From: Exobasidium rhododendri
Lineage: Eukaryota; Basidiomycota; Exobasidiomycetes; Exobasidiales; Exobasidiaceae
Direction: 5' to 3'
Assembly (NCBI GenBank): GCA_026210745.1
Contig: CP110632.1
Coordinates: forward strand, 3,719,001 to 3,783,000
Length of the DNA: 64,000 nucleotides
Part shown: positions 30,474 through 35,700 of the stretch, one piece after another
How the letters are laid out: the number at the start of each line of letters is the position of its first letter
How positions within the stretch are numbered: position 1 is the first letter of the stretch
Translations under genes and position numbers: made by a program
Notes under the pieces: model-generated
Seen by the model: the letters and a program-made list of their open reading frames with translations, nothing else
The model's database searches: none
Told to the model about the DNA's origin: nothing

Positions 30474-32333
30474 TTACTTGCGGTTGGCAAGGATCTTGGG
30501 TGTGGCATCACTTTGCGTGAAGCCATCCAATCCGGCATAGATGCAATCGCTTTCTTCTCCTTCGATTCGTAGAAGGGCGTTGTATTTTGCAACTCGCTCT
30601 GTTCGGCAAGGAGCTCCCGTCTTGATGATTCCAGTTCCCAAACCGACAGTCAAGTCGGCAATAGTGACATCTTCAGTCTCACCTGATCGGTGAGAGCACA
30701 TGACACTCCAATTGTCTGACTGAGCAAGTTGAGCAGCTTGGATGGACTCAGAGATTGTTCCGATTTGATTGATCTTGAGCAAAAGACCATTGCAAGCCTT
30801 CTTCTCGATAGCAGTCTTGATTCGAAGTGGGTTGGTGACAGTCAAGTCATCTCCAATGACAGTCACGCCGCTGTGAGCTCGGAAGTAAGTCCAAGCTTCC
30901 CAGTCATCTTGGTCAAAGGGATCTTCAATCGAGACAATGGGGTACTTCTTGATCCAGCTCATGTACAAGTCAGCCAATTCCTTTCCGGAGATCAATTTAG
31001 GATTCTTTTCGTCCTTGAAGTTGAGGTCGTACTTGCCTTCCTTGTAGAATTCAGAGCTGGCAACATCGAGAGCAATCTGGACTTTGTCCGTGTAGCCAGC
31101 CTTACCAATGGCTTCCATTAGCACTTCCAAGACCTCATCGGCACCGTCAATGGGAGGAGCAAATCCACCTTCGTCACCAACATTGGTAGCATCGATTCCT
31201 GATCGAGTTTGAATGACCTTTTTCAGGTGGTGGTAGACTTCCGTTCCAATCTTCATGGCTTCGGTAAAGGTCTGGAAGGGAATGAAAGGAAAAAAAGACA
31301 AGTTGAGTCGCCCACGCCTTTAATTTTACACAGGTGACGTATCTCTACTTGCTCACCTTGGCACCCGTGGGAACAATCATGAATTCTTGAGGAGCAAGCT
31401 TGTTTCCTGCGTGAGAGCCACCGTTGATGACGTTCATGGAAGGTGTAGGAAGAATGTATGGGGCCTTGATACCAGCTAGGGCGGCAATGTGCTTGTACAA
31501 GGCGACGCCAGTCTCTTCGGCACCAGCCTTGGCGACAGCAATAGAGACTCCCAAAATGGCATTGGCTCCCAATTTGGTCTTGTTTGGGGTTCCATCAAGC
31601 TTGATCAAGAAATCATCGACGGCCTTTTGATCAGTCACCTTAAGACCAGCCTTGATAAGTTGTGGTCCAATGACATCGTTGACGTTTGCAACAGCCTTAA
31701 AGACACCTTTAGAGTACGAGTACGGTGATCAGCTCAAGATCAAACGAGACTCTTGTCCTGCATTCCTTCTCACCTTTGCCCATGTAGGCGCTCTTGTCGT
31801 TGTCTCGGAGTTCGCAAGCTTCATGAATACCGGTACTACACAGAAGGAAAAGAAAAAGTATGAGTACAAATCTGACTCTTCAAGATGGAGGAGGAGTCTG
31901 CTCACCTGGCACCACTACAATTCGAAAAAGCAATTGCAAGCAGCACAGAGGCAATGGTCAGTATATGCAGCCTGTCGCTGGATACGAAAAAGTCTTACCT
32001 GGGTACGGCAGCGCGGAAGAGACCTAGTCAAAATTGCTTCGTCAGTTTTCGCTCCCAAACACTTCTCATCCTTTTCGCCTCACCTTTTTCAGTATGAAGG
32101 TCAACTTCGACGGTGGGGTTACCACGCGAGTCCTGCGCAAATGATGAAGAAACTCTTAGTATGTGCCAAAGCGCAGCCTATACTTGGCCTGAATTCATTA
32201 CGTACAAAGATCTGAGCAAAAGAAGCAAAGACGAATGATCAGTATGCAGAACTTTCTACGTTACACTTTCTTCTCTCGTATCTTTCGCAATGCTTCTACT
32301 CACTTGACGTGCAAAGATCTTTTGGATGGACAT
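30474..32333 (-). CDS. ENO1: Enolase, with two microexons
   Basis: Eight exons: 32304-32333 (30 nt), 32206-32211 (6 nt), 32084-32132 (49), 31999-32023 (25), 31906-31914 (9), 31774-31835 (62), 31357-31706 (350) and 30474-31271 (798). Phases agree throughout and give 442 residues, against about 438-440 in the family. The joined start reads [20 protein letters not shown] and then through to [20 protein letters not shown], the canonical enolase N-terminus, which is only obtained with both microexons. Catalytic and metal-site segments are present: SGGS-type loop [41 protein letters not shown] and [15 protein letters not shown]. It converts 2-phosphoglycerate to phosphoenolpyruvate in the cytosol. 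Such heavy splitting of the first 60 codons is notable. Confidence 0.95.
31906..31914 (-). other. 9-nt microexon of enolase
   Basis: The exon TGGTGCCAG completes a Ser codon, encodes Gly-Ala and starts the next Ser codon, giving the conserved PSGAST. The flanks are an acceptor ending GAATTGTAG and a donor GTGAGCAG. The introns on either side are 84 and 70 nt. Confidence 0.88.
32206..32211 (-). other. 6-nt microexon of enolase
   Basis: The exon ATCTTT encodes Ile-Phe, which sits between ARQ of exon 1 and DSRGNP of exon 3. The acceptor is strong (TTGCTTCTTTTGCTCAG) and the donor is GTACGT. Flanking introns are 92 and 73 nt. Skipping it would keep the frame but delete two conserved residues. 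Confidence 0.88.
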
Positions 32334-32782: not shown

Positions 32783-35700
32783 TCAAACGGATATGCCCAG
32801 GGCAGCAATCTCCTCACGAAAGAGTTCGACTCGACCCAGTGTGTACCGAAGCTAAATAAAGGGCCACGGAAAGAGGAGAAGCTTTCTTGCGTCAGAATCG
32901 GGTGGCTATAGCAAGAGCACTGACACACAGCAGGGTACTCACGTTGTCAAAGTCCTCTGAACAGCCTGCTACCGATGCTGGTGTTGTTTGATCTGTATCC
33001 ATCAGAAGTATCGTCTCGTCACTTGCGCCTGATCTGTTGAGAACATCTTCCAGCACAAGCTCGATCTGCTCTTTTGCAAATGTAACACCCCAAAGCGCCC
33101 AACTGGCATGACAAGCCATGGAATATATTTCTACTTCTTTCTCCAATCTGTCAATCTCCCGTTCCATGCTTGCCTCCAGTGCGATCAACGAGGATTTCCC
33201 TGTCAGAAGTGGTGATGAAATGGGATTGAGGGTAGGTGAATCGCCTGCTAAGATAGCAGTAGAGGCGACGGTAAAGCTCTTATTTCTACCGCCCAAGATG
33301 TGAGAAGGGCTGGAAGACTGGTCTACTGGCTTTGCTTTCGCGTTCTCCCCTGCTTTCTGTGAGACAGCTAGCGAGCTAGCAGGCAAGATAGAAGGAGGCA
33401 AAATAAGTTCTTCGGTGGGTGGTGGCACGGTTGAACCAGGTAGGTCCATCGTGCTCTGTGATGTCTTTCCCCTCATACGCAACAATCTTCCTTGTTCCAC
33501 GTATGCTCGCATCCATCGACGTCGCTCTTCTCTGGTAGGGTAAGGTAGCAGGTAAGGAGACCAAGAGTCGGTAGGTGAGTGATAATCGAAACGCCACTCA
33601 TGGAAAGCATTGGCAATGTCGTATGCTCTCGGATTGGGAGAGCAGTATTCAAAGTCAATCACGATCAAGCGTTCGTAAGGTGCCAATTTGGTACGACTCC
33701 TTTGTCGCGAAGGCATTCGTCTGGAAGACGTTACTGTCCCACTACGATCTCGGATGTTGTTTGTCGATCCCATTGCCACCTTTTCGCTACTCTGCTCTCT
33801 AGTCATTCTAGGCATCCCGATTCCAACATCTTCACCCTCTCCATCCTTGATAAGCAAAAGATTGCTGTACTGCGTATCGCCGTGTGCCAAGACCCTTTTA
33901 CTTGTTCCATTCATTCTCTCCCATCGTCGGACATGCTTTTTGTAGGCGTCCATCTCTCTCAAGAAGCGCGGAAAATCAATCGATGCGATGGCAAGTAGCG
34001 TCTTCTGAAGGTTCATCAAGGTAAGCCCCAGCTCCAAACTCTTCGTCTTTGGTGGTGGTTCAGCGAGGAAGGGCGAGAAAGGAATGCCCTCCAGATTGGT
34101 GCCTCTGAGTGCCGTTTCACATGCTACCTTTCCTTGCTCGGTCTGCGAGAACTCGTCAACAAGAGCAAAAACTTTGCCCGCTTCCCTTGCCCATCTCTTT
34201 GTTCTTCTCCAGACGCCTGGGTATGGCTGTCGACTAGTGCCAGAATTGCCCCGACTGGTGGAAGATCCTCGACGAGGTTTTGCAGCAGAAGGTGTGTTGA
34301 AGGTATAAGGTGATTGAATATGACCCTTTCTGCTCGCTAGGATTGAATCAGAATAATTCGACGGTCCTAGATTAGGACTCGATAGCAGGTTTTCACTACT
34401 ACCAGACATCATAGAGCCCCCATCTTGAGAATTGTAAGACGTTGCTAGAGAGTCAAAAGAGGTTACAGAGTTATTCCGCTGCTTCACTGAATAGTCTCGA
34501 ATCGCAATCCCTTGAATTTGAGCACCACCGACTCCTGAAGCCGTGATGGACGTATCGGGTACTGCCGAACCGTCGCTAGGTGTCATGGGTGCGGGACTTT
34601 CTCTTGGATTTTGATTCGAGAGCACAGATTTGCCTTCAAAGTAACTACCGACTTGGCCACTTGTACCTCTGCTATTCTTAGATGGCAGAGGTCTATGACT
34701 TCGCGCGAAGAGATGGTTTTCAATACCCCTGCCAAATAAACCGCTGCTGTTCTCACTTCCCGCTCGAAGATCGCCTTGTTCCAATACAGCTCTCATTGTT
34801 TCTAGAGGTACTTCATGTAGCTGCCTCATTCTTCTAGCTACCCACTGCGCTGTACCTTCCCGACCTCTCACCCACAAGCTTCCGTCTTCTCGTATTGTTT
34901 CCCTCCTGTCCCCTAGATCACGCATACCTTCCTTACCGATGGGCTCTGCATCGAAGAATGTCTCTACTCTACCATTTGCAAAGGTACCCAAGATGTGTGG
35001 TCCGATCTCATATAGACTAGAAAGTGTGTGTAAGATGAGCAATTCTGCCCTTCGAGATAGCAATACTTCCGTTCCACTTCCATACACGCGCAATAAGACT
35101 GTCCTCGGACCATTGGCTGACTTCTTCGAGGGTAATTTGTAACTTACGAAGAAGACAGCGTTTGAGAAAGCACCACTGATTCGCTTCAATTCGAGATTGT
35201 CTGGAGATAGAGGAAGAAGGGATGGATCCACATCTTCTTCTGACCATGTCTCCAACTTCAATATCGTACTGAACATTGTCAAAACTTGATCTCTAAATGC
35301 TGATGTTTTGGCTTTGCTGCAAATGGCGAGAGATGAAAGTAGCGTAAGTGCAAGAGCTCAAACAGCATCTTATCGTGGGCACTTACTTTGCCTTCAATCG
35401 CCAGCCCCTCGCGGCCGGCACCCCGTAAGCATGCATGTCTTCTTCATCCTCGTCCTCAAGGTCAAACCCGCTAGGTTCTACTTCTTCTTCATCCTCCTCT
35501 TCTTCAAACTCTTCCCTTTCTTCTTCCTCACGCTCTCCCACCGTTTTCTTTGTATAGCCGTCTACATCAACCTTGCTCTTGTCCTGCGTGAATGCAGATG
35601 AGCTTCTTCTGGCGACAGGCGTCAAAGTACCTCCGAAAGAATCACCTCGAATCGCATTGGCACTACTTAGACCACCTTGCGAGACACTTGTATTGATCTT

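Follow-up and report, generated by a model that had tools for sequence, protein, structure and literature searches.

A predicted six-nucleotide coding microexon in the enolase gene of Exobasidium rhododendri

Can a conserved glycolytic gene rely on an internal exon of two codons, and how would such an exon be spliced? The question is raised by the enolase gene in the window, which is here the whole 64,000-nucleotide (64-kb) stretch of E. rhododendri DNA that was analysed. A sequence-only reading of the window had placed a six-base exon near the start of this gene and had suggested that its inclusion could be regulated.

Gene model and spliced alignment

The enolase gene lies on the minus strand, and its spliced coding sequence (1329 nt, 442 aa, eight coding exons) contains no internal stop. 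Introns 1 to 7 are 92, 73, 60, 84, 70, 67, and 85 nt long, in this order. When the 17.6-Mb genome (4 contigs) was searched by profile, PF00113 (Pfam Enolase_C) matched two exon pieces, both belonging to this gene, and the motifs DSRGNPT and PSGASTG were both rebuilt by splicing. The Pfam match and the two motifs identify the gene as enolase, and its description as a glycolytic gene was sound. The closest protein was the enolase of Acaromyces ingoldii (class Exobasidiomycetes; 87% identity), P0001 (706 aa) and P0002 (674 aa), two long entries with lower identity, being set aside. Immediately upstream of enolase and in the same orientation, a 796-codon open frame (32892-35282, minus strand) holds a choline/ethanolamine kinase match (PF01633). 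The gene model is given below, with slashes at exon borders.

32304..32333, minus strand: exon 1, 30 nt, 10 residues, ending CGT CAA, donor CAA/GTGAGT
32212..32303, minus strand: intron 1, 92 nt, branch-like CTGAT 27 nt from the strong acceptor TTGCTCAG
32206..32211, minus strand: putative 6-nt microexon ATCTTT (Ile11-Phe12), phase 0 on both sides, context TTTTGCTCAG/ATC TTT/GTACGT
32133..32205, minus strand: intron 2, 73 nt, weak donor TTT/GTACGT, branch-like CTAAG 23 nt from the acceptor TTGCGCAG
32084..32132, minus strand: exon 3, 49 nt, 16 residues, beginning TTTGCGCAG/GAC at 32132
31999..32023, minus strand: exon 4, 25 nt, from spliced alignment
31906..31914, minus strand: putative second microexon TGGTGCCAG, 9 nt, phase 2 on both sides, donor GTGAGC
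31774..31835, minus strand: exon 6, 62 nt, from spliced alignment
31357..31706, minus strand: exon 7, 350 nt, from spliced alignment
30474..31271, minus strand: exon 8, 798 nt including the stop TAA

Proteins were aligned to the DNA with a purpose-written spliced aligner, which was run without knowledge of the gene model. The 6-nt exon was recovered with all six queries that carry the dipeptide (6/6), at 32211-32206, and it rebuilds ARQIFDSRGNP; spliced alignment, splice signals, and homology agree here, and the coordinates given previously were exact. P0026, the sole query lacking the dipeptide, gave a direct junction of exons 1 and 3. For the first 28 residues, the alignment score was 119.5 when the microexon was included and fell to 100.7 once either of its splice sites, donor or acceptor, was disabled. 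A score of 119.5 was attained by none of 1000 and none of 2000 shuffles in separate runs (the best of the 2000 reached 114.3). The aligner is permissive: some gap-free 6-nt exon of lower score was found in 127 of 1000 shuffles, and spurious 3' exons of 4 and 11 nt appeared with two of the seven queries, which were taken as artefacts of the divergent C-terminus. It is therefore the combination of score, splice signals, and homology that makes the case for the microexon.

The flanking signals were also searched as patterns. AG-ATHTTY-GT occurs once on both strands of the window, at the microexon. Among 20,000 dinucleotide shuffles of the 171-nt stretch made up by the microexon and its two introns, this pattern was present in 96, YAG-ATHTTY-GTRNGT in none, and YAG-any six bases-GTRNGT in 213. 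An exon of 6 nt between GT-AG introns of 92 and 73 nt lies well below the length of about 27-30 nt up to which internal exons are classed as coding microexons.

The same spliced alignment placed the 9-nt exon (31914-31906) with 7/7 queries; the sequence-only reading had not mentioned it. Its pattern was present in 1 of 20,000 shuffles of its 163-nt stretch. It completes S37, encodes G38 and A39, and begins S40 of PSGASTG, a motif found in all 220 enolases that were fetched. Residue 40 aligns with position 39 of the yeast enolase chains (an offset of one), which we take to be the serine ligand of the second magnesium. Without the 9-nt exon the frame would be kept and PSTG would remain. Exon 4 (25 nt), between the two microexons, was likewise missing from the earlier reading.

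Splice signals and the enolase family

Nine further conserved genes of this genome yielded 38 introns, of which 31 were kept as references. The seven dropped by judgement were the ACT1 intron of 117 nt (at a 10-residue gap), TDH3 (364 nt), PGK1 (189 nt), the first three of PYK1, and YPT1 (182 nt); those of TDH3, PGK1, PYK1, and YPT1 lie next to divergent ends or to terminal pieces that are very short. Thirty of the 31 kept introns measure 60-100 nt, and the remaining one 307 nt.

The microexon acceptor scored 7.1, above 27/31 references (scored leave-one-out), which bears out its earlier description as strong. The GTACGT donor was also correctly reported, but its weakness had passed unremarked: TTT/GTACGT scored 2.7, below all 31 kept references, the lowest of which reached 4.7. 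This ranking is valid for the kept set of 31 only, as four of the seven dropped introns have donors that score below it; with all 38 introns in the model it scored 3.4, with 4/38 lower and 34/38 higher. GTGAGT is the donor in 17 of the 31 references and GTACGT in none. The intron 1 donor, GTGAGT after exon 1, scored above 21/31 references. A CTRAN branch-like site was found in five of the seven enolase introns, introns 5 and 7 having none.

The fetched enolases were the best 120 from each of two overlapping searches (about 8000 scored per search), 220 proteins altogether. At the site between ARQ and DSRGNP, where ATCTTT supplies its two residues, 215/220 carry a dipeptide, four begin just upstream of the site, and one has no dipeptide. 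Among the 203 that fit the first pattern, IF occurred in 107, VY in 53, and II in 20. The 17 outside that pattern comprise 12 with SR in place of AR and the dipeptide present, the four late starts, and P0026.

The four late starts (P0045, P0075, P0083, and P0106) are enolase calls that open with MIIDSRGNP, at a methionine just before the dipeptide; P0075 and P0083 match the corresponding stretch of P0048 (Malassezia caprae). Their starts look as if an intron sits just upstream, near the same site. All four calls would fit an intron near the first position, and intron 1 may predate intron 2.

P0026, from Sympodiomycopsis kandeliae, reads ARQ--DSRGNP and so lacks exactly the two residues of the microexon, while it is otherwise gap-free over the first four 60-column blocks of an alignment with eight others. 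S. kandeliae belongs to the Exobasidiomycetes like A. ingoldii, but to a different order, Microstromatales. On the simplest reading of P0026, the S. kandeliae gene probably has the same microexon, omitted from the gene model; the entry could instead record a true two-residue deletion. Conservation of both intron positions among relatives was read from proteins only. A pattern search of viral contigs returned six matches, none from a relative.

Taken from the DNA and from protein homology, ATCTTT reads as a genuine coding microexon of enolase, and the homology implies that spliced RNA contains it.

Inclusion, skipping and order of intron removal

We consider it likely, at a probability of about 0.85, that ATCTTT is a constitutive coding microexon left between two close introns and included in essentially all productive mRNA. 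The earlier reading had measured the exon against the lower limit for exon definition. This framing was rejected because the introns are short: the flanking introns measure 92 and 73 nt, 30/31 references fall within 60-100 nt, and intron definition would be expected. Splice sites that lie 60-100 nt apart are generally assumed to be paired by the spliceosome over the intron between them. Splicing exon 1 straight to exon 3 would take out 171 nt as one intron, a length beyond the range of those 30 references, and would shorten beta-strand 1.

The proposed course is as follows. Within a conserved coding stretch, two short introns separated by six bases would leave ATCTTT between them, and each would be recognised as an intron. 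Six bases probably leave too little room for complexes on the acceptor and on the donor together, and the two introns would therefore probably be removed one after the other. Intron 1 is suggested to leave first because its signals, donor and acceptor, are strong; ATCTTT would thereby be fused to exon 1, and the weak donor of intron 2 would be used second, then ending a longer exon. Sequential removal would avoid a steric clash of two splice-site complexes on a 6-nt exon. Both this order and the constitutive use of the exon are what we infer from the sequence.

In Caenorhabditis elegans, the need of small exons for PRP-40 rises with flanking intron length, and a very short flanking intron freed one microexon from PRP-40, a result that the authors interpreted as intron definition (PMC8378409, in the part of that source consulted). 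Given this case and the short flanking introns here, a 6-nt exon would be less problematic than exon definition suggests. FF-domain matches were found at two loci of the genome and are compatible with a Prp40 homologue.

The consequences of other splicing were read from the gene model. The exon 1-exon 3 join is in frame, as had been pointed out before, and the lost residues would come from a strand: in the AlphaFold2 model of the A. ingoldii enolase (P0003; mean pLDDT 91.5, with 80 in block 31-40 and 79 in block 41-50), strand 1 spans residues 5-12 and is closed by Ile11-Phe12. In the same model residues 35-56 are coil, and GAS thus lies in a loop. Skipping of ATCTTT would be predicted to move R9 and Q10 towards the positions that Ile and Phe occupy. 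Retention of intron 1 would lead to a stop after 25 residues and retention of intron 2 to a stop after 40.

Regulated inclusion, as had been proposed, would mean that the weak donor makes use of the exon dependent on growth conditions, so that skipping or intron 2 retention lowers or alters enolase. The donor is the single feature that could speak for it: few of the donors measured score lower and few of the acceptors higher, a combination that could favour partial use, and the weakness could mean inefficient use. Skipping in frame would give an enolase two residues shorter, intron 2 retention would end the product after 40 residues, and a 20-nt microexon of Trichoderma Xlr2 is switched by glucose (PMC11121469, as far as the consulted part of the source goes). 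Positive evidence for regulation was not obtained, however. A dipeptide stands in 215/220 enolases and the two-residue-shorter form in just one annotation among the 220; the residues lost on skipping end beta-strand 1; and the combined 171-nt intron would be atypical. The RNA of 32133-32333 folded no better than shuffles (z 0.18; 115/200 shuffles folded at least as well). We regard regulated inclusion as unlikely. Slightly less likely again is the broader proposal that the weak donor acts as a brake on enolase, with inclusion against intron 2 retention or skipping varying with growth state, and that this is kept across Exobasidiomycetes. A hairpin between exon 1 and the microexon, whose near repeat (described below) holds the palindrome AGATCT, was considered and rejected, as the predicted fold had the z-score of 0.18.

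That ATCTTT is always skipped, and enolase made without Ile-Phe as annotated in S. kandeliae, would agree with the kept frame and with P0026, which has exactly that form. It is nevertheless very improbable, since 215/220 fetched relatives carry a dipeptide, the closest (A. ingoldii) among them, splice signals stand on both sides of the microexon, each neighbouring intron contains a branch-like site, and the score falls to 100.7 from 119.5. An error of assembly or sequencing, such as a corrupted exon, could have produced the apparent split; judged from the assembled sequence, this is more improbable still, because donor, branch-like site, and acceptor are present in both introns and the remaining coding sequence is intact. 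A further reading draws on a repeat in exon 1:

32307-32320, minus strand: exon 1 stretch AGATCTTTGCACGT, 13/14 identical to the microexon plus donor AGATCTTTGTACGT (32200-32213)

A GC donor in exon 1 (after KIF, at 32312) would here join 32132 and give MSIQKIFDSRGNP, IF being supplied by exon 1 and the microexon serving as a decoy. The 13/14 copy of microexon and donor in exon 1 speaks for such a site, and the product is in frame. However, ARQIF would be deleted although R9 is invariant in 25/25 aligned enolases. The site scored -1.3 against 3.2 for GTACGT (21-intron model) and was passed over by the aligner when GC donors were allowed; on this score and the aligner's choice the reading was rejected, and its probability is close to nil. 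When the 250-nt region was shuffled 2000 times, seven of the shuffled sequences contained a repeat as good as AGATCTTTGCACGT/AGATCTTTGTACGT; no function was found for the repeat. An origin of the microexon by duplication from exon 1 was not built on: the repeat was noticed post hoc, and a dipeptide at this site is general in enolases.

Constitutive inclusion is thus the reading that we retain, and both microexons would encode needed parts of the enzyme and are probably always included rather than switched. Short introns would let a housekeeping gene be cut very finely, with a 442-residue enzyme relying on a 6-nt exon and a 9-nt exon, one of which sits in the active-site loop. As the frame stays open without them, such exons can be lost by gene finders unnoticed, which probably happened in the S. 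kandeliae enolase entry. Because the enolase microexon is too short for both of its sites to be occupied at once, it is also well suited to testing in which order the introns around such an exon are removed.

Comparison with other short exons

Other short internal exons were found near the 5' ends of genes in the same genome: 14 nt in actin (L018), 16 nt in GAPDH (L019), and 17 nt in triosephosphate isomerase (TPI, L021). First coding exons under 20 nt were found in actin (7 nt), tubulin (13 nt), and TPI (19 nt). A 13-nt piece at the PYK1 start and an 11-nt first exon of YPT1 were distrusted. With 6 and 9 nt, the two enolase exons fall below every internal exon drawn in the nine other genes, the shortest of which has 13 nt if the distrusted PYK1 piece is counted and 14 nt if it is not. 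Like enolase, actin, GAPDH, and TPI are conserved genes of this fungus with short exons towards the 5' end, and enolase is the extreme of this genome's short-exon habit.

Beyond this genome, an enolase microexon was described in none of the literature matches listed (titles and abstract openings of open-licence papers), which does not prove its absence. A coding microexon in a fungus is also known from Trichoderma virens Xlr2; that one is glucose-regulated, 20 nt long, and part of an ascomycete transcription factor, whereas the enolase exon has 6 nt and no sign of regulation (PMC11121469, from the part consulted). The animal microexons that depend on PRP-40/PRPF40A are likewise too short for exon definition, and intron definition has been proposed for them. 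Their dependence on PRP-40 grows with flanking intron length, whereas both enolase flanking introns are below 100 nt (PMC8378409, in the same partial source as above).

A further likeness is with the P450 genes of Phanerochaete chrysosporium, in which exons go down to 6 bp (2 aa); as here, the organism is a basidiomycete with short introns and 6-bp exons (PMC1184071, from the part of the source consulted). P450s form a large divergent family, whereas enolase is a single conserved housekeeping gene with two putative microexons; neither in that part of the source (PMC1184071) nor in our analysis was a function shown for the microexons. Exons of 6 nt are thus, as far as that source goes, already known as a kind from Phanerochaete P450 genes (PMC1184071), and the enolase example adds to them.
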